Positions 50,299 to 61,726 of a DNA stretch of 64,000 bases are shown in pieces. Under the pieces are notes generated by a model. That model was given only the letters and a program-made list of their open reading frames with translations, ran no database searches and was not told the origin of the DNA. This DNA is from Crocinitomicaceae bacterium. GTDB taxonomy: Bacteria > Bacteroidota > Bacteroidia > Flavobacteriales_D > Crocinitomicaceae. Numbering within the stretch: the first letter of the stretch is position 1; each line of letters opens with the position of its first letter. A program made the translations under genes and the position numbers. The stretch covers positions 124,001-188,000 of the forward strand of contig JAHEMR010000004.1 of the NCBI GenBank assembly GCA_024643545.1, given 5' to 3'.

Positions 50299-50997
50299 AT
50301 GAGTGAAGTCCTCAAAATAGCTATCATTGGCGATTATAACTTCACCTACAATTCGCATCACGCGACGAATTTATCTTTGGACCACGCATCTGATTTTCTC
50401 GAAACAGAAGTCAATTATTATTGGATTAAAATCAACGAGGCCATTCAATACAAACGTGTTTATTTTGAGCAGTTTGATGGAATTTGGATAGCGCCGGGTC
50501 CTTTTCTAAATCATTTCTTTTTAAACGGTGTTTTCAAAGTAATTTTAGAATCCAATGTTCCAGTGTTTTTAACTGGCGAAGGTTACAAGCACTTTTTTGA
50601 ATACCTCATCTCGATTAATCAGTTGAATCCTTACGGGGAGAAATTAATTTCTGATAATCTCATTGAGGGCAGTCAATTTGAACGTGTAACGATTTACCCA
50701 AAAACAAAAGACATCGTGAAACTGTATGAAAATTGTAATCATACAGAACTCAGTTCGTCTCGCTTCAGTCTATATCCTCAACTTATGGACCAATTAAATG
50801 GTCATTTGATTGATATTGAAGCCACAAACCAGTTTGAAGATCCGGAAATTGTGACTTTAAGAAACCATCCCTTTTTTATGGCTTGCAGTTTTTGTCCGCA
50901 AATATCCTCAACGCGTGACTTACCTCATCCCTTGATTTATACTTTTCTTAAAATGGCTAGGGAACTTTCAGCCTCAAAGTTCAGTCAATTGGTTTAA
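50299..50997 (+). CDS. CTP synthase C-terminal region-related protein, nucleophile missing
   Basis: A 232-residue protein related to the glutamine amidotransferase half of CTP synthase (family of CTP synthase C-terminal region-related (seleno)proteins). The fold is clear: IAIIGDYNFTYNSHHA at residue 7, DGIWIAPGPFLN near 55, VPVFLTGEGYKHFFEYL at 87, and HPFFMACSFCPQ near 195 with the DLPHPLIYTFLKMA end. Usual family members have FLxTCGGFQH, with a catalytic Cys or Sec; here that segment reads FLTGEGYKH, and the expected histidine of QFHPE is replaced (SFCPQ). It should lack glutaminase activity. Overlaps addA-like gene by 24 bases. Confidence 0.8.
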   Translation: MSEVLKIAIIGDYNFTYNSHHATNLSLDHASDFLETEVNYYWIKINEAIQYKRVYFEQFDGIWIAPGPFLNHFFLNGVFKVILESNVPVFLTGEGYKHFFEYLISINQLNPYGEKLISDNLIEGSQFERVTIYPKTKDIVKLYENCNHTELSSSRFSLYPQLMDQLNGHLIDIEATNQFEDPEIVTLRNHPFFMACSFCPQISSTRDLPHPLIYTFLKMARELSASKFSQLV

Positions 50998-53900
50998 TGC
51001 CGAATAATACAATAAGCACCTAACTGGTTTTTTGAAGATTTCCTCCAGTAGTTTAGCGTAAGCAGCGATCTGCTCCATGTGTTTTTGGTTTATTTTTCCC
51101 GTTTTAAAGTCAATAACCAGGATCTCATCAGCTTTTATGAAAACCTTGTCAGGTTTTTTTACATCATTTTCACCTGCTAAAACGACCTGCTCATTCAGCG
51201 ACTTTTCAATGTTCTGTAAATAATTTCCCTCCTCCATTTTCCGCCAAAAAGCTTGCGCGCATTCACGCAAACGAGGTTCATTTTTTTGCTCAATACTGCC
51301 TTCCGCCAATAATTTCTCTAATACTGGATCTGTATCAAGGTTCGAATGAGATAAGGACATTAACAGGTGGAAATCATTCCCGAAGCGTTGTTCTTCTTGT
51401 TGCATTTCCGTTTCGTCTCGGAACACTTTCCTAAAAACGATATCAGGATACCATAATCGTTGACTAAAATCGACTGGAGCGTATAAATTATCAATGGATT
51501 CAACTTTTTTCAACAAGGGTTCTGTTTGTCCAATTTGCACTAAACCTTCTTCGGTCATACCGAGATTCATGCCTTCCAGTTGATCGTGAATCATTGCTCC
51601 AAATTTTGTTTTTTCAAAATCATTTAGTGCATATAACCTCAATTCTGGGCGGGTCATTCCAACATAAAACAAGTTCATTTTATCCAAAAGAATCAAACTA
51701 TTCTCTTCTTTTGCAAACGCATCTAATTCAGGAATTTGTTGGTTTTTTCCTGGAAAGGCATATAAGATTTTGTCACGTACTTCCATCAAATACTTCCCTT
51801 GCGGATTCATGGAAGTAGTAAAATCCATGTTCGGTATAATCACTACTGGAAACTCTAATCCTTTCGACTTATGAATCGTCATTATTTTCAATGCGGATTG
51901 CGTGTCCGGCATCTGTAAAGCGATTTTATCCTTTTGAGCGTCGAAAAATTCAAGGAAATGATGAATGTCCGATTGACGTGCGAGTTGAAATCCATAAATT
52001 ACATCCATAAAATGATGCAGATAAGGTTCTTCTGTTTCTTTCCAATCCATTAATTTCATGAATTTCTGGACGAGGTCATATACACTTTCATAGGTTGTAA
52101 AAAAGGATTCAGTTCCGCCAAAATGATCTTTTAAAAACCGTGTGTCATTGAAAACCCGGATGGACTTCCCTTCCTTTTGTATGACTTCGAAATAGCCGAG
52201 GTAATCAGCAGTTGAGTATGTAGCGTGCAGTCTGAAATACAATTCGGCAAAACGTTTGGTTTCCGTTGCTTTCTTCGGAGATGCGCGTCTTCTTAAATAG
52301 GAAATAATCAATTGAACTTGTGCATCTTTCGCAATGAGTAGGGAATCTTGTGAAACGACTTGGTATTTTCTTTCAGTGAGTCCAATAGCGAGCGCATTTC
52401 CAAGTTTATTGGTCTCCGTCAAAATACAGATATCTCCAGGTTCAAATCCAGCTTGGATGGACTCTTCAATAAAACCAATTACTTTTTCTAAACGTTCATC
52501 TAAGGTTAATTTTTTTTGAATGGATTCAATGTGAATGTAGCCACTTTTTTGTTGCGTAGGTTCTTGCTTCAGATCTTGGTAAAAATGTGCCATGTTTGCA
52601 GGTAAGCAATTTGCTAATCCTTCAAAAAGTTGATTGTTAAATTCAACAATTTCCTTTGCAGAACGAAAATTAGATGGAAGCACGCGTTTTGCTCCACGAA
52701 TGGCAAAGGTGGCACTTTTGGCCGCTATTTGAGGGTCATTTTCCGGATTGTAAATTGCTGGAAGACTTACAAATTGTTCCGCTAGTCCATTGTTGAAACG
52801 GTAAATCGATTGTTTTGCATCACCTACGATTAAATTCCAACGGTTGTGCGCCAGAGATTCTAATATCAATGGAATTAGGTTTAACCATTGAAGGCGAGAT
52901 GTATCTTGAAATTCATCCAATAGAAAGTGTTCAAACCGAACACCTAATCTTTCGTAGATGTATGGAGCTTCTTCGTCTCTAACAAGTTTACTTATCAACT
53001 TATTGAATTCAGATATTCGTATTAGTTGTTCATCGTTCATCATCAGCTGTAGTTGCTTTCCTACGTGCTGCAACAAGGCCATGTTAAAGAAATTCTTTCG
53101 GTAAAGTTCAATTAAATTAAATGCTGCAAGATCTTTTAAATAACGTTCATTCAATCGAATCACTGACTCTTTCAAGGACAATGGAATGTCTAATTTAGAA
53201 TTTGCATCCATCAGATTTAAGAGCGTTGCAGAGAATAATCCGTCGTTGTTTGAATTAATCTTTGGGAAAGCGTTCTGAACATTTAATTTTTCAAAATTCT
53301 TGACCGTTGTCCCTTTTCCTGGAATGTCGGATAGGTTTAATTCCAATTTGAAAAATTCGTCATGAACCTGTTTCGCATCGTCAAGAAAAGCAGTTAAAAT
53401 TTGATTTCGATCTTCAAATAATCGGGTGTAGTTTTCTTTAGTGAGTTCCAGTTGCAACAACTGTTGGATTTTATCCGCATTTTTCTCCTTCCCAAGCATG
53501 GAAGAAAATTCAATTAATTGTTTGCGAAAATTCCAGCTATTCCCTTCCTCCAAATTTGCTTTTGCATATTGATACATCCAATCCGTAAGGTCTTCAGCAC
53601 CAGGAGCACCTAATTGATTCATCAGTAAATCCACTACATCTTCGGTTACTTGTTTTTCATTTAAAATAACCTCGAAATCAGCAGGCAGGTCTAAATCCCT
53701 TGAAAAAGAACGGATTAACCTCAAGTTAAATTTGTCAATCGTCGAAACATGAAAATCTTCATACGCATGTAAAATCCCTTCCAAAGCAAGCTTACTTCGT
53801 TTGGTTAATTCAGCAGCAGAAAGTCCGGTCTGTTTCTCCAAGTCAATCCGCATGTTTTCCACTTTTTTATTCTGTGGATCCACATAAGCGAGACCGAACA

Positions 53901-54102
53901 AAGTAGAAAGAATTCTTTCCTTCATTTCACTCGCTGCCTTATTCGTAAAGGTCATGGCGACAATGCTCTTATATTTTCGCTTAAATTGAGCATCCTTTAA
54001 TAAAATACTGAGGTATTCAAGAACCAATTGATGCGTTTTTCCGGAACCAGCGGAAGCACTTAACACACTGAGAGGATGAATGTTTCGGTCAATATTTTGC
54101 AT
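50974..54102 (-). CDS. AddA/RecB-like UvrD helicase-nuclease
   Basis: A 1042-residue double-strand-break repair enzyme. It has Walker A SASAGSGKTHQLV near residue 15-24, TFTNKAASEMKERI near 50, the motif II DEFQDTSRLQW near 399, motif III-like VGDAKQSIYRFNNG, and the UvrD C-terminal helicase MTIHKSKGLEFPVVIIPN near 735. The C-terminal nuclease is of the PD-(D/E)XK type (ILVIDFKTGKINQKHMEQIA near 995). It resembles AddA of the AddAB pair, and such proteins in Bacteroidota usually have an AddB-like partner, which is not in the window. No neighbour shares its strand. Confidence 0.88.
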   Translation of the reverse strand: MQNIDRNIHPLSVLSASAGSGKTHQLVLEYLSILLKDAQFKRKYKSIVAMTFTNKAASEMKERILSTLFGLAYVDPQNKKVENMRIDLEKQTGLSAAELTKRSKLALEGILHAYEDFHVSTIDKFNLRLIRSFSRDLDLPADFEVILNEKQVTEDVVDLLMNQLGAPGAEDLTDWMYQYAKANLEEGNSWNFRKQLIEFSSMLGKEKNADKIQQLLQLELTKENYTRLFEDRNQILTAFLDDAKQVHDEFFKLELNLSDIPGKGTTVKNFEKLNVQNAFPKINSNNDGLFSATLLNLMDANSKLDIPLSLKESVIRLNERYLKDLAAFNLIELYRKNFFNMALLQHVGKQLQLMMNDEQLIRISEFNKLISKLVRDEEAPYIYERLGVRFEHFLLDEFQDTSRLQWLNLIPLILESLAHNRWNLIVGDAKQSIYRFNNGLAEQFVSLPAIYNPENDPQIAAKSATFAIRGAKRVLPSNFRSAKEIVEFNNQLFEGLANCLPANMAHFYQDLKQEPTQQKSGYIHIESIQKKLTLDERLEKVIGFIEESIQAGFEPGDICILTETNKLGNALAIGLTERKYQVVSQDSLLIAKDAQVQLIISYLRRRASPKKATETKRFAELYFRLHATYSTADYLGYFEVIQKEGKSIRVFNDTRFLKDHFGGTESFFTTYESVYDLVQKFMKLMDWKETEEPYLHHFMDVIYGFQLARQSDIHHFLEFFDAQKDKIALQMPDTQSALKIMTIHKSKGLEFPVVIIPNMDFTTSMNPQGKYLMEVRDKILYAFPGKNQQIPELDAFAKEENSLILLDKMNLFYVGMTRPELRLYALNDFEKTKFGAMIHDQLEGMNLGMTEEGLVQIGQTEPLLKKVESIDNLYAPVDFSQRLWYPDIVFRKVFRDETEMQQEEQRFGNDFHLLMSLSHSNLDTDPVLEKLLAEGSIEQKNEPRLRECAQAFWRKMEEGNYLQNIEKSLNEQVVLAGENDVKKPDKVFIKADEILVIDFKTGKINQKHMEQIAAYAKLLEEIFKKPVRCLLYYSALNQLTEL

Positions 54103-54182
54103 AATTCAAAATGAATTTGGATTGGATAAAGAATGTTCAGCGGATTTTTTAAAATTAAGAACAAAATTTGATTGTTTTAAGG

Positions 54183-54190
54183 TAAATTTG
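54183..54190 (+). promoter_or_regulatory. -7 promoter element of the mbnP operon (TAAATTTG)
   Basis: Perfect TAnnTTTG ending 4 bases before the mbnP ATG at 54195. It predicts a leaderless mRNA for the MbnP-MbnH operon. A clear TTG -33 box at 17-23 bases is not seen. Confidence 0.4.
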
Positions 54191-54194
54191 TTTC

Positions 54195-54941
54195 ATGAAG
54201 AATTTCCTTTATTTAGTACTCCTGTCTCCCTTACTTTGGAGTTGTGATCCAGATGAACCGAAACCCATTGATCCGGTAGCCGAAACAGTGAAAGTTACGG
54301 TAAATCCTACATACGGCACCCAAACTTTCTATTTAGATTCTGTGTATACGACAGCTGAAGGATACAAAGTTAAATTCACTGAGTTGAATTGTTATTTCAC
54401 CTTATTGGGAAATGGTACCAATCAGTTAATTGAGGCAGCCTTATTTAACTTCCGTGAAACGGGTACAGCGTTGGTATCCAAAGCAGGGAATCATTTAAAC
54501 TATGGTAACCTTGCAGGTAAAATCGGTGTAGATTCTAGTTTAAACCACCTCGATCCTTCTGCTTTTCCAAATGAAAGTCCTTTGAACATTAGTAATGCAG
54601 GACCGATGCATTGGGGTTGGAATCCAGGTTACATCTTTATGAATATTGAAGGAAAAGTGGATACAATTGTTGATGCGACAAACAACCTTGACTTGAGTTT
54701 TAGTTTCCACATTGGAACAGATACGTATTTACAATCCTTCAATTTTGATAATGTCACATGGCAGGACAAAGGAAATAATAGTTGGGAATTACCTTTAAAA
54801 TTAGACCTGGCAAACTTTCTATCAAATCCTTCTAGTCCGATTAACTTAAAAGACGAGCATTTAACACATACTGCAGCCGGGCAAGAGACTTTAACACAAA
54901 AAGTGATTCAAAACTTCAAAAATGCGTTAACAGTAAACTAA
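54195..54941 (+). CDS. MbnP-like copper-binding lipoprotein
   Basis: A 248-residue exported protein matching the MbnP family. In Methylosinus, MbnP binds copper through a site created when its partner MbnH oxidises a tryptophan to kynurenine. Signal peptide with lipobox LLWSC (cysteine 17). A conserved segment MHWGWNPGYIFMNIEG spans residues 138-153, with W140 and W142 as candidate targets. Two further beta-rich blocks follow (LDLSFSFHIG; SWELPLKLDL). It is the first of four coupled genes: the MbnH gene begins within its stop codon (TAATG). No methanobactin peptide gene is nearby, as is common for most homologues. Confidence 0.88.
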   Translation: MKNFLYLVLLSPLLWSCDPDEPKPIDPVAETVKVTVNPTYGTQTFYLDSVYTTAEGYKVKFTELNCYFTLLGNGTNQLIEAALFNFRETGTALVSKAGNHLNYGNLAGKIGVDSSLNHLDPSAFPNESPLNISNAGPMHWGWNPGYIFMNIEGKVDTIVDATNNLDLSFSFHIGTDTYLQSFNFDNVTWQDKGNNSWELPLKLDLANFLSNPSSPINLKDEHLTHTAAGQETLTQKVIQNFKNALTVN

Positions 54942-56011
54942 TGAAATTCATCACTGTTTTTTCTTTATTGTTTCTATTCGTTGCTTGCCGCAAAGACAAA
55001 GCGGATTACACGCCGACACCCTACACCTTAAAAATCCCTTCCCATTTTCCAGCTATGATTATTCCATCGGATAATCCTATGACTGTGGAAGGAGTGGAAC
55101 TTGGACGCTATCTTTTTTATGAAAAACAATTAAGCGGGGATAATTCCATGAATTGTGCATCATGCCATATGCCTCAAAATTCATTTTCAGATCACCATCA
55201 ATATTCAGTTGGGATAGATGGTGTCTTTGGAAACCGTCAATCGATGGCACTTATAAATTTAGGATGGGAAAATTACTTCTTTTGGGATGGGCGAAAAACA
55301 ACGCTGGAATCTCAAATCATTGAACCTGTTAAAAATCCGATCGAAATGCATCAATCTTGGAAAGATGCCATTCACAAATTAAATGCTGATGTCACATACC
55401 GAAATCGCTTTTTTAGGGCATTCGGAGAAGAAGGGGTTGATTCAGTGAAGGCAGCCAAGGCAATTGCTCAGTTCATTCGAACCATGATTTCAAGTGAATC
55501 GAAATATGATGTTATGTACAAGTTTGAGAACAATTTGACCTTGAATTCATCTGAACAAGCGTTGCTTTCATCCATCGATTTAGATGAGTGGGCAGGTTAC
55601 GATCTATTCAAAAGTTTAAATGGTGCCGATTGCTTTCATTGCCATAATGGTCCATTAATGCGCGTGAAAAAATTTAGTAACAATGGACTTGATGCGACGT
55701 TTAGTGATTTAGGTAGAGGTGGTGTCACACAAAATCCAGAAGAAAATGGGAAATTTAAAGTCACTACCCTCCGTAACATTGCTTTTACGGCACCTTATAT
55801 GCACGACGGACGATTCGCAACCCTTGACCAAGTTATCGAACACTACTCTAGTGGGGTTCACATGAGTCCAACAATTGATCCATTAATCGAATATGCCAAT
55901 CAAGGTGGTGTACAGCTAGATGCACAAGAAAAATATTTATTGAAGAAATTTTTACTCACGTTAAGTGACTACAATTTCATCAATAATCCATCATTTAAAG
56001 ATCCGAATTAA
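54941..56011 (+). CDS. MbnH/MauG-family dihaem cytochrome c peroxidase-like enzyme
   Basis: A 356-residue exported dihaem protein of the cytochrome c peroxidase/MauG family, most likely MbnH, which modifies the MbnP product of the gene before it. The signal peptide is lipoprotein-like (LFVAC, cysteine 16). The haem sites are CASCH at 72-76 and CFHCH at 231-235. Typical surroundings are seen: GRYLFYEKQLSGDNSMN, FGNRQSMALINLGW, FFWDGRKTTLESQ, and TAPYMHDGRFATLDQVIEHY near 285. The substrate is inferred from the partner gene. Start overlaps the previous stop by one base; its own stop overlaps the next gene in the same manner. Confidence 0.9.
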   Translation: MKFITVFSLLFLFVACRKDKADYTPTPYTLKIPSHFPAMIIPSDNPMTVEGVELGRYLFYEKQLSGDNSMNCASCHMPQNSFSDHHQYSVGIDGVFGNRQSMALINLGWENYFFWDGRKTTLESQIIEPVKNPIEMHQSWKDAIHKLNADVTYRNRFFRAFGEEGVDSVKAAKAIAQFIRTMISSESKYDVMYKFENNLTLNSSEQALLSSIDLDEWAGYDLFKSLNGADCFHCHNGPLMRVKKFSNNGLDATFSDLGRGGVTQNPEENGKFKVTTLRNIAFTAPYMHDGRFATLDQVIEHYSSGVHMSPTIDPLIEYANQGGVQLDAQEKYLLKKFLLTLSDYNFINNPSFKDPN

Positions 56012-57429
56012 TGGGAGAAAATACAAGACTAACGACCGAAGAAAAGGCCCTAAAAATTAACTTAACACCGGACATTTACGGGTGTTTTGCGGAAATCGGT
56101 GCGGGTCAAGAAGTCGCAGCTAACTTTTTCAAAGCAGGAGGAAGTTCGGGTACTATTGCTTATACACAGTCTGCTTATGATATGAAAGTTTCGGACTCCA
56201 TGTACGGAGAAACCATCCGTTACGTGTGTGAAGAGAGACTTACTACCATGTTAGAAACGGAGTTTTTACACCTTCAAGATATTTTACCTGTTAAAAATAG
56301 AGAGGCGCGTTTCTTCTCGTTCTGTAATACGGTTGAATCTTTAAATTACCATAAAACCAATCAAGGTCAAGGATGGGTTGGAATGCGGTTCCAATTGGGA
56401 ATCGATAAGAAACCTAATACCGTTATTTTGCATATTAAAATGCACGACAATAGTCACAAGGCACAACAAGAAGCACTTGGGATATTGGGCGTGAACTTAG
56501 TTTATGCTTGTTATTTTCAATCGTCTACGATTGATGAATTCATCGACGGAATCGTTCAAAGACTTCCGAGAGATCGAATGGAAATCGACATGTTACGAAT
56601 TTCAGGTCCAGACTTTGAAGAAATGGATAACCGCATAATTGCACTGAATTTAGTTCGACGTGGAATCACGAATGCAACAATGTTCGATTTAGCGAAGAAT
56701 GTCATGCAGCCATCAACCGCGTTGTACAAAAAAAATATCCTACTGATGCGTGGACGTTTTCGTCCAGTCACGAAGGTTCACATTGACATGATTGAAAAAG
56801 CTCGGAAGGAGTTTTTGAAAGAAAATCGTGTGAAAGAAGAAAACTTAGAAGTTGTCTTTGAATTGACCTTAAAAGACTTAACTGCAGACGGAAAGATTTC
56901 AGATAAAGACTTCTTGGATCGTGCAGAACTTCTTGGTTCATTAGGATATACGGTAATGATTTCAAACTACTTGAAACATTACAAAATGTTAGAATACTTA
57001 TCAGCAATTGCCAAAGGAAACCTTGTTGGTGTAATCATGGGGGTTTACAACCTTCACATCATTTTCGATGAAAAATATTACGACAACCTTCCGGGTGGAT
57101 TATTGGAGGCGTTTGGACGTGGATTTGGACACAATGTTAAATTGTATGTATATCCGGCTATTAACGTCGAGACCGGAGACCTTTATGGACTTAACAATAT
57201 TAAGTTACCAGAAAACCTCACTGGACTCCTTACCTACATGCAAGCAAATGATAAAATTGCCGCAATTCCAGAATACAACGAACGACTTTTACACATTCTT
57301 TCCGATGATGTTTTGAGTAAAATTAAATCTGGAGGAGTAAGTTGGGAGGAAGATGTTCCCTATGAGGTAGTGCAAGCCATTAAGTTTTTTGAATTGTTTG
57401 GATATCAGAAAAAAGCTGTGTTGAACTAA
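56011..57429 (+). CDS. Conserved protein with nucleotidyltransferase-like motif, function unknown
   Basis: A 472-residue cytoplasmic protein conserved in Bacteroidota and often auto-labelled nicotinate-nucleotide adenylyltransferase or even TonB-dependent receptor. No signal or membrane segment. Residues 1-60 carry a striking conserved block (LTPDIYGCFAEIGAGQEVAA, FFKAGGSSGTIAYTQSAYDM). Near 248-257 lies GRFRPVTKVH, which fits the GxFxPxTxxH motif of cytidylyltransferase-fold enzymes except that Val replaces the second Gly, and this probably explains the annotation. Full adenylyltransferase activity is doubtful. Start and stop each overlap neighbours by one base (TAATG), placing it in the MbnP-MbnH operon. 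Confidence 0.75.
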   Translation: MGENTRLTTEEKALKINLTPDIYGCFAEIGAGQEVAANFFKAGGSSGTIAYTQSAYDMKVSDSMYGETIRYVCEERLTTMLETEFLHLQDILPVKNREARFFSFCNTVESLNYHKTNQGQGWVGMRFQLGIDKKPNTVILHIKMHDNSHKAQQEALGILGVNLVYACYFQSSTIDEFIDGIVQRLPRDRMEIDMLRISGPDFEEMDNRIIALNLVRRGITNATMFDLAKNVMQPSTALYKKNILLMRGRFRPVTKVHIDMIEKARKEFLKENRVKEENLEVVFELTLKDLTADGKISDKDFLDRAELLGSLGYTVMISNYLKHYKMLEYLSAIAKGNLVGVIMGVYNLHIIFDEKYYDNLPGGLLEAFGRGFGHNVKLYVYPAINVETGDLYGLNNIKLPENLTGLLTYMQANDKIAAIPEYNERLLHILSDDVLSKIKSGGVSWEEDVPYEVVQAIKFFELFGYQKKAVLN

Positions 57430-58445
57430 TGCCACATATTAAAAATGCCTTGATTCGTTTTCGCATCATCGACCGGATGTTGCGTAATAAGTACAAGCCA
57501 TTTCCAAGTAAATTAGAGCTACGATCGGCTTGTGAAGAATCGCTTTACGGTTCAGATCACGGAAATAATATTTGTGATTCGACCATTGAAAAAGACATGT
57601 TCAATATGAAAATGGAACATGATGCACCTATTAAATACAGCAAGTTACATAAAGGTTATTATTACGAAGATCCAAATTTTAGCATCAACGATATACCCCT
57701 CTCAGAAGATGAACTGAGTTCCATCAAATTTGCGGTTAAAACACTTCAGCAATTTAAAGAAGTTCCATTCTTTCAGCAGTTTGGAAATGCGATTGATAAA
57801 ATTGTAGACAGAGTTTCCATTGGTGGAAATCCTGAAGATGAGGACATTCAAAAATATGTGCAATTCGAATCGGTCGTTTCGAGTGGTGGAAACGAACACC
57901 TGCCAATGATTTTGGAAGCCATTCGCGGTAAAAAAATGCTCTGGTTCATTTACGCAAGCTTTGTGAAAGGTATTGAGAAACCCAGAAAGGTATCGCCGCT
58001 TTTTTTAAAAGAATATAGAAACCGCTGGTACCTCATCTGCTTTGACAAATTGAAAAACGACATCATTACCTATGCACTGGATCGCATGCAAGAACCGAAA
58101 ATTCTTGAGGATGAAGCAAGTCTCCCAATCGATTTTGAACCAGAATTGTATTTCCAAGACACGATTGGAATTACCTCGTACAAAGGAAAAGCTGAACGAA
58201 TTGTGTTTAAAGCCAATCCTATTGCAGCCAAGTACATTTCCTCACAACCTTTTCATCAATCCCAAAAATTAACAAGTGAAACTACTGAATTTAGTGTATT
58301 TGAATTAACCGTTTTGGTATCCGAAGAATTCGTGCGAAATTTGCTTGGATACGCTGGAGAATTGGAAGTACTTGAGCCGAAAAGTTTAAGAAAAGACATG
58401 GCGGATCGCGCGAAACAACTGAATAAATTATATGAATCGAAATAA
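57429..58445 (+). CDS. WYL-domain transcriptional regulator (YafY-like)
   Basis: A 338-residue regulator: an N-terminal winged helix (ALIRFRIIDRMLRNKYKPFP, residues 5-50) and a C-terminal WYL domain from about residue 150, with KVSPLFLKEYRNRWYLICFD near 187-206 and a WCX-like end near 250-330 (VSEEFVRNLLGYAGELEVL). WYL domains sense nucleic acids or small nucleotides. Its start overlaps the stop of the previous gene (TAATG). It could regulate the MbnPH operon or the genes after it, but this is only by position. Confidence 0.87.
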   Translation: MPHIKNALIRFRIIDRMLRNKYKPFPSKLELRSACEESLYGSDHGNNICDSTIEKDMFNMKMEHDAPIKYSKLHKGYYYEDPNFSINDIPLSEDELSSIKFAVKTLQQFKEVPFFQQFGNAIDKIVDRVSIGGNPEDEDIQKYVQFESVVSSGGNEHLPMILEAIRGKKMLWFIYASFVKGIEKPRKVSPLFLKEYRNRWYLICFDKLKNDIITYALDRMQEPKILEDEASLPIDFEPELYFQDTIGITSYKGKAERIVFKANPIAAKYISSQPFHQSQKLTSETTEFSVFELTVLVSEEFVRNLLGYAGELEVLEPKSLRKDMADRAKQLNKLYESK

Positions 58446-58471
58446 GATAGTCACACGATAAAAGAAAGATT

Positions 58472-59245
58472 ATGGAAATACTAAAAGAACTCATCAATGG
58501 CGTTTGTCACATTACCTTAAATCGACCAAGCGTGTTCAATTCGTTCAATAAAACAATGGCTCTGCAATTGCAAGAAGTATTGGATGATTGTGCGGTAAAT
58601 CCAGAAATACGTGCCGTATTAATTACAGGAGAAGGAAGAGCATTCTGTGCTGGACAAGATTTAGCGGAGGCGATTGATCCGGAAGGACCTGAATTAAAAT
58701 CAATTGTTCGTGATCATTATAATCCAATCATTATCAAAATTAGAGAACTTGAGAAACCAGTTATTGCCGCTGTGAATGGTGTTGCTGCAGGAGCCGGAGC
58801 GAATATTGCGTTGGCCTGTGACATCGTGGTAGCAAAAAAATCAGCCTCGTTCATTCAAGCTTTTTCTAAAATCGGATTAATTCCAGATTCAGGGGGGACA
58901 TACTTTTTACCTAGATTAATTGGAATGCAAAAAGCCATGGCCTTAATGATGACGGGTGATAAAGTTTCTGCGGACGACGCGGAACGAATGAACATGATTT
59001 ACAAAGTTTTTGAAGATGAGTCCTTCGATGAAGAAGTAACCAAACTTGCAGAAAACTTAGCTACGATGCCAACTTATGGACTCGGATTAACAAAAAAAGC
59101 AGTGAATTTAGGTTTATTTAATTCACTGGAAGATCAATTAGATTTAGAAGAAAGTTTACAAACAGAAGCTGGAGAAACAGATGATTTCACTGAAGGAGTA
59201 AATGCATTTATTCAAAAGCGTCCAGCGGTATTTAAAGGAAGATGA
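58472..59245 (+). CDS. paaG: Enoyl-CoA hydratase/isomerase, PaaG-like
   Basis: A 257-residue crotonase-fold enzyme. It shows the oxyanion-hole pieces AFCAGQDLAE near 65 and GVAAGAGANIALACD near 108, then SFIQAFSKIGLIPDSGGTYF with a conserved aspartate and a C-terminal helix. AFCAGQDL and IGLIPDSGGTYFLPRLIG are characteristic of PaaG (1,2-epoxyphenylacetyl-CoA isomerase) in aerobic phenylacetate degradation. A general enoyl-CoA hydratase remains possible, since the core paaABCDE genes are not here. It starts 26 bases after the WYL gene and overlaps paaH by 4 bases. Confidence 0.85.
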   Translation: MEILKELINGVCHITLNRPSVFNSFNKTMALQLQEVLDDCAVNPEIRAVLITGEGRAFCAGQDLAEAIDPEGPELKSIVRDHYNPIIIKIRELEKPVIAAVNGVAAGAGANIALACDIVVAKKSASFIQAFSKIGLIPDSGGTYFLPRLIGMQKAMALMMTGDKVSADDAERMNMIYKVFEDESFDEEVTKLAENLATMPTYGLGLTKKAVNLGLFNSLEDQLDLEESLQTEAGETDDFTEGVNAFIQKRPAVFKGR

Positions 59246-60405
59246 GTAAAATTATTGGAGTAATTGGAGCAGGAACCATGGGTTCTGGCATCGCACAAGT
59301 AGCCGCACAATGCGGTCATCCCGTCTATTTGATGGATGCCAATGTAGAACAGTTGGCCCGTGCAAAATCAGGACTTTCCAAATCATTGGAAAAATTGGTA
59401 GAAAAAGGGAAATTCACTTCTGAACAAAAAACGAATATTGAATCGAACATACAGTATGTTTCACAATTGGAAGGGCTTTCATCGTGCGATTTGATTATCG
59501 AGGCTATCATAGAGAAAATGGAGGTCAAACACAGCGTTTTTTCAGCGTTAGAGAAAATCGTTTCTTCGGATTGTATTTTAGCAAGCAACACCTCTTCCCT
59601 ATCCATTGCCTCCATAGGTTCTTCTTTGAAAAAGTCTGACCGCATAATTGGAATTCACTTTTTCAATCCAGCGACGATTATGCCGTTGGTGGAAATCATT
59701 CCTGCGGTTCAAACAAATGAAGCTACGATTAACCAAGCCGTTTCGTTGATTCAAAGTTGGGGTAAAACCGTTGTTGTGTGCAAAGACACACCTGGATTTA
59801 TTGTGAACCGAGTTGCGCGTCCATTTTATGGTGAAGCGCTTCGCATTTACGAAGAAGGTATCGCGGATTTTGCGACCATCGATTGGGCCATGACCCACTT
59901 TGGTGGATTTAAAATGGGTCCATTTACCTTGATGGATTACATCGGAAACGATGTCAATTATGCGGTTACTGAATCTGTTTTTACCGCATTTTATTATGAT
60001 CCACGCTTCAAACCTTCTTTCACCCAAAAACGACACAGCGAAGCAGGATTTTATGGCCGTAAAACAGGTCGTGGATTTTATAATTACGCGGAGGGAGCAA
60101 TTATGCCGCTTCCAACGATGGATGAAGAACTGGGAAAAAAAATCTTCGAACGGATTCTTGTGATGTTGATCAACGAAGCATGTGATGCTGTATTCATGCA
60201 AGTAGCATCTGTACAAGATGTTGATTTAGCTATGACAAAAGGTGTGAATTATCCAAAAGGATTATTAGCTTGGGCAGAGGAACTTAGTTTGGATTGGGTT
60301 TTAATGGAGTTAAATACACTTTTTGATACCTATGGTGAAGACAGATACCGTCCAAACGCGCTCTTAAAACGCATGGTGAAAAATGGGGATAAATTTTATT
60401 CATAG
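59242..60405 (+). CDS. paaH: 3-hydroxyacyl-CoA dehydrogenase, PaaH-like
   Basis: A 387-residue NAD-dependent 3-hydroxyacyl-CoA dehydrogenase, which oxidises 3-hydroxyacyl-CoA (in the phenylacetate route 3-hydroxyadipyl-CoA) to the 3-oxo compound. The N-terminal Rossmann motif IGVIGAGTMGSGIAQVAA is followed by ASNTSSLSI, IIGIHFFNPATIMPLVEIIP with the catalytic histidine, and TPGFIVNRVARPFYGEALRI. A C-terminal repeat of the dimerisation domain covers about 290-385. Start overlaps paaG by 4 bases (ATGA), so both are cotranslated. Another beta-oxidation role is possible. Confidence 0.88.
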   Translation: MSKIIGVIGAGTMGSGIAQVAAQCGHPVYLMDANVEQLARAKSGLSKSLEKLVEKGKFTSEQKTNIESNIQYVSQLEGLSSCDLIIEAIIEKMEVKHSVFSALEKIVSSDCILASNTSSLSIASIGSSLKKSDRIIGIHFFNPATIMPLVEIIPAVQTNEATINQAVSLIQSWGKTVVVCKDTPGFIVNRVARPFYGEALRIYEEGIADFATIDWAMTHFGGFKMGPFTLMDYIGNDVNYAVTESVFTAFYYDPRFKPSFTQKRHSEAGFYGRKTGRGFYNYAEGAIMPLPTMDEELGKKIFERILVMLINEACDAVFMQVASVQDVDLAMTKGVNYPKGLLAWAEELSLDWVLMELNTLFDTYGEDRYRPNALLKRMVKNGDKFYS

Positions 60406-60443
60406 TCAAGCAGTAAACACTTTACATTCCCACTGAATATTGT

Positions 60444-60451
60444 TATTTTTG
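60444..60451 (+). promoter_or_regulatory. -7 promoter element of metK (TATTTTTG)
   Basis: Perfect TAnnTTTG 18 bases before the metK ATG. TTTAC at 60421 lies about 18 bases upstream and may serve as a weak -33 box. I do not see a SAM riboswitch in the 64-base gap. Confidence 0.45.
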
Positions 60452-60469
60452 CACTCTAAAATATTTTAA

Positions 60470-61726
60470 ATGGCATACTTATTTACATCAGAATCCGTTT
60501 CTGAAGGACACCCAGATAAAGTTTCAGATCAAATTTCTGATGCATTAATTGATCATTTCATGGCATTTGATCCAAGTTCAAAAGTTGCGTGTGAAACACT
60601 CGTTACCACTGGACAAGTAGTATTGGCAGGTGAGGTTAAATCAACATCATACCTAGACGTTCAAGCTATTGCACGTGAGACCATTCGTCAAATTGGATAT
60701 ACAAAGTCTGAATATATGTTTGATGCGAATTCATGTGGAATCTTCTCTGCATTGCATGAACAATCTTCAGATATCAATCAAGGAGTTGAACGTTCAAATC
60801 CAGAGGATCAAGGTGCAGGTGACCAAGGAATGATGTTCGGATATGCTACCATTGAAACAGACAACTACATGCCATTGGCATTGGATCTTGCACACAAAAT
60901 TTTGCAGGAACTTTCTTACATCCGTAATAACGAATTATCCCTAATTCCTTATTTGCGTCCAGATGCGAAATCACAAGTAACGATTGAATACTCTGATGAC
61001 AATGTTCCTCAACGCATTGACTCTATCGTTGTATCTACACAACATGATGATTTCGATGCGGAAGAAACAATGTTAGCTAAAATCAAAAAAGACATCATTG
61101 AAATCGTTATTCCTCGTGTGAAAGCGAAATTGAAACCAGCGCTACAAGCGTTGTTCAATGATGCAATTACTTATCATATTAACCCAACAGGAAAATTTGT
61201 GATCGGTGGACCACACGGAGACACAGGTTTAACTGGACGTAAAATCATTGTGGATACGTACGGTGGAAAAGGTGCTCACGGTGGTGGGGCATTCTCCGGG
61301 AAAGATCCATCGAAGGTAGACCGTTCAGCTGCGTATGCAACACGTCACATGGCAAAAAATGCAGTAGCTGCAGGATTGTGTGATGAGTTATTAGTTCAAG
61401 TTTCTTATGCCATCGGTGTTGCTAAACCTTGTGGCTTGTATGTAAATACTTATGGAACAGCTAAAGTAAATATGACGGATGGTGAAATTGCGGAGAAATT
61501 GAACGAAATTTTCGACATGCGTCCATACTTTATCGAACAACGTTTAAAATTGAGAAATCCAATTTACCAAGAAACTGCGGCTTACGGACACATGGGACGT
61601 AAACACGAAAAAGTAACGAAATCATTCAAAGCTCCAGACGGTTCAGTCATTACAAGAGAAGTGGAATTATTTACTTGGGAAGAATTAAATTACGTAGATC
61701 AAGTTAAGGCCGCTTTCGGTTTGTAA
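60470..61726 (+). CDS. metK: S-adenosylmethionine synthetase
   Basis: Makes S-adenosylmethionine from methionine and ATP. The 418-residue protein shows all signatures: [17 protein letters not shown] near 12-28, [12 protein letters not shown] near 119-130, [20 protein letters not shown] near 243-262 and [20 protein letters not shown] near 269-288. The length is a little over E. coli (384), as is typical in Bacteroidota. It has its own promoter upstream and a strong terminator after the stop codon, and so is a monocistronic unit. Confidence 0.98.

Follow-up and report, generated by a model that had tools for sequence, protein, structure and literature searches.

Do four closely packed genes in a Crocinitomicaceae genome form a single copper-protein machine, or does a two-gene copper system share its operon with neighbours of another kind? 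The question is raised by a 64,000-nucleotide stretch of Crocinitomicaceae bacterium DNA (GenBank assembly GCA_024643545.1, contig JAHEMR010000004.1, positions 124,001 to 188,000; hereafter the window), in which an earlier note, made from the sequence alone, had described a four-gene operon around MbnP- and MbnH-like genes and suggested that the two downstream genes may take part in the function or regulation of the pair. Our analysis indicates that genes 1 and 2 are a divergent, probably functional Bacteroidota MbnP-MbnH pair that retains the motifs for kynurenine formation; to this extent the proposal stands, but the place it gave to genes 3 and 4 in the function or regulation of the pair is not supported. 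Related bacteria can have genes 3 and 4 and lack the pair; the two are probably operon neighbours and not parts of the machine of the copper pair, and beyond one group of genomes the evidence does not support a functional unit of four genes. This reading of a copper pair with genes 3 and 4 as passengers, in which we have good confidence, draws on homology, fold, motifs, distribution and gene order, from which we infer function. The four open reading frames (ORFs) lie on the + strand at 54195-58445, with the motifs and TAATG junctions that had been reported:

54195..54941, + strand: gene 1 (248 aa), mbnP-like; predicted lipoprotein (Cys17) and predicted kynurenine/copper protein with M138, W140, W142 and H172 (from PF20243, the structural model and conservation)
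54941..56011, + strand: gene 2 (356 aa), mbnH-like di-haem enzyme of the MauG/bacterial cytochrome c peroxidase (bCcP) superfamily, with lipobox Cys16, CASCH, CFHCH, W115 and Tyr302 (from PF03150, the match to 6e1c and a tree)
56011..57429, + strand: gene 3 (472 aa), without signal peptide; predicted CinA-C/PncC-like and nicotinamide mononucleotide/nicotinate mononucleotide (NMN/NaMN) adenylyltransferase-like folds (from the model, Foldseek/VIA and a NadD profile)
57429..58445, + strand: gene 4 (338 aa), transcriptional regulator with WYL and WCX domains (PF13280 and PF25583, both over cut-off)

Gene 1 carries HWGWNPGY at residues 139-146, as claimed, and passes the Pfam MbnP family PF20243 with 72 bits (gathering cut-off 27). 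Its AlphaFold model (predicted local distance difference test (pLDDT) 85, predicted template modelling score (pTM) 0.81, 10 sequences) matches the six chains of 7l6g in Foldseek with E values of 1.7e-6 to 1.0e-5, the next PDB chain standing at 0.13, and these are the only PDB chains that match the model at E <= 0.001. In the VIA comparison, 7l6g_D gives Z 15.8 over 196 aligned residues with a root-mean-square deviation (rmsd) of 3.0, and the next row reaches Z 4.0. The MbnP identity rests on Pfam and on this fold comparison, because PDB sequence and profile matches are weak: gene 1 alone retrieves a single chance-level match (4xoh, E 0.81), neither MopE nor CorA is among the matches listed in the PDB searches with gene 1, and the WNW of 7l6g aligns on W140-W142 with E 0.0015 for a 20-sequence profile and E 0.1 for a wider 40-sequence profile, both alignments leaving out His172, so that this His is not mapped on 7l6g. 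Among 40 MbnPs from relatives, a set that takes in paralogues, G111, W140, W142, G145 and H172 are invariant, M138 is at least 90% conserved, and Y146, G153 and G174 are nearly invariant; His139 is not general, other homologues having Tyr or Phe. A 2021 abstract on MbnP reportedly describes conversion of the first Trp of WxW to kynurenine and a copper site made of one His and one Met, and by analogy M138 and H172 may be the copper ligands of the gene 1 protein.

Gene 2 has both haem-binding motifs described before, CASCH (residues 72-76) and CFHCH (231-235), scores 178 bits against CCP_MauG PF03150, over the cut-off, and aligns with positions 1-335 of the 336 in the NCBIfam equivalog TIGR04039. 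A competing explanation is that gene 2 encodes an ordinary di-haem cytochrome c peroxidase and that the MbnP-like protein holds metal without kynurenine: PF03150 also takes in bacterial peroxidases, many bCcP structures match gene 2, and its score stays below the cut-off of the MbnH equivalog. However, the best PDB match of gene 2 is MbnH itself (6e1c, E 7.6e-45; next 5.7e-35), and its Tyr302 shares an alignment column with the Tyr of 6e1c. By end-point offset in the MauG match (53-306 to 12-298), the same residue lands on MauG Tyr294, which we take to be a haem ligand, and in cytochrome c peroxidases the Tyr302 column presumably holds Met. Both CxxCH sites, W115 and Tyr302 are common to gene 2 and its group in a 39-sequence alignment and tree; with Tyr instead of Met, Tyr302 is the predicted distal ligand of a centre of the MauG/MbnH type, for which both CxxCH sites are present. 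Gene 2 is also closely paired with an MbnP gene: of 33 loci taken in, 13 gave no value for the MbnP-MbnH gap, and in the 20 that could be measured it is -4 to +2 in all but L098, where it is 44. Set against these points, the peroxidase reading appears unlikely.

Outside the genus, in some other families of the order, MbnP can be followed by two tandem di-haem enzymes, as in six of seven regions fetched (L179-L183, L185), the seven having been picked since earlier results hinted at a tandem. The window MbnH groups with the second enzyme of the tandem. None of the six first enzymes has the Trp at position 115, which is replaced in each, and in those of L180, L182, L183 and L185 the axial-type Tyr, retained in the second enzyme, is changed to Phe or Lys.

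Several observations weigh against the assignment of genes 1 and 2 as a kynurenine-type copper pair. Both proteins miss the cut-offs of their NCBIfam equivalogs (TIGR04052, 33.7 of 140 bits for gene 1; TIGR04039, 239 of 362.85 bits for gene 2), the WxW loop is the least confident part of the gene 1 model (pLDDT <50 at residues 142-144), and no copper-transport gene occurs among the eight genes around the pair that were checked with Pfam. The description of the pair as methanobactin-independent agrees with the annotation, in which none of the eight Pfam-checked genes at 50974-61726 is a methanobactin gene, the short mbnA not having been searched for.

As read from the sequence, both proteins begin with a lipobox (Cys17 in gene 1, Cys16 in gene 2), and among 10 orthologues of gene 1 both Ser16 and Cys17 show at least 90% conservation. 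For kynurenine formation, copper binding, export, co-transcription and the physiological role of the pair, we infer the following scheme. MbnP and MbnH would be exported and lipid-anchored, oxidising equivalents would enter MbnH at its Tyr-ligated, MauG-type di-haem centre, and the enzyme would oxidise W140 of MbnP, the first Trp of WxW, to kynurenine. The modified MbnP may then bind one Cu(I) via the conserved Met138/His172 set and serve in envelope copper handling. A promoter located at the start codon of mbnP would drive the pair, and genes 3 and 4 would share its message in this group, where the gene order is fixed and compact; the copper pair would have no need of them.

The promoter element and the flanks of the four genes are as follows:

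50974..54102, - strand: RecB/AddA-like UvrD helicase, divergent (Pfam UvrD-helicase/UvrD_C)
54183..54190, + strand: TAAATTTG, which fits the TAnnTTTG -7 box and starts 12 bases upstream of the mbnP ATG
58472..60405, + strand: PaaG-like enoyl-CoA hydratase, then 3-hydroxyacyl-CoA dehydrogenase (Pfam/NCBIfam; conserved block in the genus)

The TAnnTTTG at 54183 is the sole + strand match within 53900-58500. Such an element lies within 60 bases upstream of 17 of the 57 window ORFs, which were called mechanically, versus 3.9% of random positions, and it stands at exactly -12 in 7 of 17 upstream regions compared (another spacing in 7, none in 3), the start codons being those placed by the ORF finder. 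In the available excerpts of PMC9723704, the box occupies -12 to -5 in Flavobacterium psychrophilum; transcription would therefore begin on the A of the mbnP ATG. A leaderless mbnP transcript is thus predicted, a class that makes up only 5.5% of messages in F. psychrophilum according to the same excerpts (PMC9723704).

Does this layout make genes 3 and 4 part of the copper system? On such a reading, the WYL protein would regulate the pair and gene 3 would supply or sense a nucleotide, and the spacing of the genes speaks for it: TAATG, a 1-base overlap, is found at all three junctions of genes 1-4, and no TAnnTTTG element lies inside the run. A gap of exactly -1 occurs in 4 of the 37 co-directional neighbour pairs of the window, and 3 of those 4 are the junctions of genes 1-4; three successive one-base overlaps are unusual within the window. 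The genome is compact in general, since 11 of the 37 pairs have gaps of -5 to +3. The co-directional run also extends past gene 4 into the enoyl-CoA hydratase (58472, gap 26) and the 3-hydroxyacyl-CoA dehydrogenase (59242, overlap 4), and the 'four-gene' boundary is therefore a choice of the earlier note. Across the genus, the PaaG-like enoyl-CoA hydratase and the 3-hydroxyacyl-CoA dehydrogenase come after the WYL gene in the same run.

Gene order within the genus, read by eye in 37 genomes including the window's own, counts against our view of genes 3 and 4 as passengers, because it would also be expected of a functional unit. Gene 3 is found in 33 of the 37 (four matches have an internal stop, and some are in pieces), the order MbnP-MbnH-gene 3 stands on one contig in 32 of these 33, and gene 3 is followed by the WYL gene in 31, with junctions of few bases across the genus; in the exceptions, G021, G007 and G010, the genes are at contig ends. 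This order is less telling for a functional unit because RecB, the enoyl-CoA hydratase, the 3-hydroxyacyl-CoA dehydrogenase and MetK are equally kept in the same block in those genus loci that were drawn, where the contig or fetched stretch allows. Absence of gene 3 from G016, G018 and G025 was considered as a co-loss of the block and rejected, metK being missing as well and the block probably unassembled. The absence in G032, where metK and a cut WYL gene lie on one contig and gene 3 is absent, was also set aside as evidence.

Outside the genus, the linkage gives way. At least 584 stretches in genome_contigs encode a relative of gene 3, and 80 of these were analysed as named loci. MbnP-MbnH precedes gene 3 in 10 of the 80, all among the 13 nearest (63-80% identity), which include Fluviicola, Brumimicrobium and Crocinitomix; that Fluviicola and Brumimicrobium also have the pair before gene 3 favours a functional unit, but the remaining 70 loci have no preceding pair, and the claim that genes 3 and 4 serve the function or regulation of the pair finds no support in this count. 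Among the outcomes that the earlier note named beforehand as refuting its proposal is a lack of linkage of the two downstream genes in relatives, and outside the genus this outcome is found. The pair is absent before gene 3 in L094, L096 and L102 (3 of the 13 nearest), and among the other 67 loci an MbnP homologue lies within four genes in one (L122) and the pair was seen in none, 10 of the 67 having less than 2.5 kb upstream and all of these at least 0.9 kb. The WYL gene and gene 3 occupy different places in other families of the order: blastp at E 1e-5 detected no MbnP, MbnH or WYL beside gene 3 in 17 regions from 16 other-family genomes, and 11 regions around other-family WYL homologues contain no gene 3, MbnP or MbnH.

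The loci nearest to the genus show how the pair and its neighbours come apart. In L094 and L102 the pair is missing while gene 3 and the WYL gene stay together, separated by 21 and 13 bases, and the best MbnH homologue in their genomes reaches 43% and 38% identity, respectively, compared with 58-67% in four pair-bearing genomes. Upstream of the pair, L093 has a NamZ-like gene that L094 and L102 carry before gene 3 (72 and 73% identity); the FtsX-like gene that precedes it in L093 is shared with L094 (70%). When L093:931-5808 is set beside L094:2935-7422, an MbnP-MbnH cassette is present in the former and absent in the latter, between the shared NamZ-like gene and gene 3. Given the flank that L093 shares with L094 and L102, the pair can therefore be described as a present/absent cassette beside gene 3-WYL. 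In Brumimicrobium (L097/L098), both the pair and gene 3 are present, and no WYL gene adjoins them in the loci fetched. The MbnH-gene 3 gap is -1 to +9 in 24 of the 30 measured loci and 35-236 in the other six (L089, L090, L093, L095, L097 and L098), a loose junction that argues against a functional unit, as does the absence from genes 3 and 4 of the lipobox of genes 1 and 2, the former two appearing cytosolic from the same kind of reading. Two findings pull the other way: the L094 and L102 genomes are metagenome-assembled, and an MbnH elsewhere in them may have been lost from the assembly; in L096, whose gene 3 locus lacks the pair, the genome holds a 52% MbnH homologue at another place. On balance, we judge it improbable that genes 3 and 4 belong to the copper pair and keep to the reading in which they are passengers, the comparison setting the pair apart from its operon neighbours. 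Over 97 loci (the 17 other-family regions plus the 80 named ones), the gene most often beside gene 3 is a divergent one for a metallo-beta-lactamase-fold protein, so named by sequence reading; it occurs in 33 of the 97, in 31 of them directly before gene 3 on the opposite strand.

MbnP genes are not confined to this locus. The window's genome has three, and at least one occurs in 58 of 60 genomes searched (its own included). One paralogous pair of the same genome (L073) is followed by a YHYH-domain protein, and another (L074) lies between a methyltransferase and mnmE. The YHYH-domain protein after the former pair (L073:6805-8166) has a type IX secretion sorting tail. Three genomes from two further families of the order (L182/L050, L183/L037, L184) also have the pair divergent from a RecB-like helicase, so that the RecB-pair position is probably older than the genus. 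As a general rule, RecB beside MbnP was rejected, the adjacency being found in only 5 of the 36 MbnP loci tested (3 genomes), most of them with flanks of ~1.5 kb.

What, then, does gene 3 encode? The GRFRPVTKVH motif of this 472-residue protein is indeed present, at residues 248-257. No Pfam or NCBIfam family exceeds its cut-off for gene 3, no PDB sequence matches it at E up to 1, and the motif-level matches to TIGR00125 (E 0.066) and CoaD 3f3m (E 0.25) are weak. The AlphaFold model (pLDDT 88.7, pTM 0.86, 32 sequences) has two domains, of which residues 239-465 resemble NMN/NaMN adenylyltransferases (1nup, Z 16.6, 201 aligned, rmsd 3.6; best Foldseek E 3.4e-7) and residues 5-175 resemble the CinA superfamily (6l19, Z 16.0, 152 aligned, rmsd 2.6); CinA-C is the NMN deamidase PncC in the accessible portions of two papers (PMC3855486, PMC4246079). 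Alignment of gene 3 with single CinA and NadD proteins by hhalign gave nothing useful. Against a 26-sequence NadD profile, a one-profile comparison, gene 3 reaches E 1.7e-5 in global and 1.3e-4 in local mode (probability 56 and 54%), and this weak match spans the whole C-terminal domain. A 24-sequence CinA profile gives E 0.093 and 0.14, which is no sequence match; the N-terminal half has the predicted fold (Z 16.0) but no alignable sequence signal for the YxNxxK and catalytic residues of PncC.

The description of the motif as nucleotidyltransferase-like survives in part: it is located in an NMN-adenylyltransferase-like fold, but among the 83 homologues that fit the motif pattern used, just 21 have His as the last residue, 20 of these belonging to the near group, and 54 have Asn. 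The window protein keeps T254 and H257 of (H/T)xxH; the Arg of the second NadD motif, SxSxxR, aligns with Leu435, a residue at least 90% conserved, in an alignment of 56% probability, and the C-terminal half does not have the two motifs together. Because of the scarcity of His and the alignment of the motif-2 Arg with Leu435, ordinary adenylyltransferase activity of gene 3 is doubtful, and the protein may have a sensing or changed role. Gene 3 as the sole source of NadD or PncC was rejected, canonical CinA and NadD genes being present elsewhere in the window's genome; of 40 genomes searched, CinA was found in 39 and NadD also in 39 (38 over cut-off).

The gene 3 family is unnamed and widespread in Bacteroidota. 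We tentatively consider that gene 3 might be a Bacteroidota PncC-like/NMNAT-like fusion that has lost the usual catalytic residues and kept a highly conserved pocket, acting as a sensor of pyridine nucleotides or related nucleotides or catalysing a different reaction, and that its operon with the copper pair and the WYL regulator in the Crocinitomicaceae-like group might tie the output of an envelope copper protein to the NAD state, a speculative proposal to which we give a low probability. No PncC-NMNAT fusion was found in the literature searched, which was available in part and mostly excluded subscription journals; one CinA study, in its accessible part, mentions that CinA is occasionally fused to other domains and sets such fusions aside. 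For this conserved Bacteroidota protein without a named family, the results suggest a fold and a class of substrate that can be put to the test.

Compared with known systems, gene 3 resembles the NadD/NMNAT and CinA-C/PncC enzymes of NAD recycling in the predicted folds of both halves, and differs from them in having no CinA sequence match and altered NadD motifs. The closest counterpart of genes 1 and 2 is the MbnP-MbnH pair of Methylosinus trichosporium (7l6g, 6e1c; TIGR04052/TIGR04039; PF20243), with which they share the pairing of the genes, the MbnP fold, WxW, a conserved Met and His, two CxxCH haem sites, and the Tyr and Trp of the di-haem enzyme. Unlike that pair, the window pair stands in a set of eight checked genes with no methanobactin gene in it, carries lipoboxes on both proteins, scores below the NCBIfam equivalog cut-offs, and precedes the genes for a WYL regulator and for a protein that has no signal peptide. 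MbnP-MbnH pairs outside methanobactin operons are already published, as far as the available abstracts and excerpts go, and the accessible portion of the literature mentioning MbnP or MbnH contained no treatment of a Bacteroidota pair; the present locus, with its stable gene order, is a clear example of a probable kynurenine-type copper pair in Bacteroidota. A second point of comparison is offered by MopE/SACCP and CorA/CorB of methanotrophs, described in the parts consulted of PMC3912023 and PMC3621798 as surface copper proteins that contain a kynurenine formed from Trp and whose gene adjoins one for a di-haem peroxidase. CorA and MopE differ in using two His with the kynurenine, and MbnP has no marked sequence similarity to them in the same sources (PMC3912023, PMC3621798); the window pair would resemble them in the Trp-derived type of its kynurenine and does so in the adjoining di-haem peroxidase gene.

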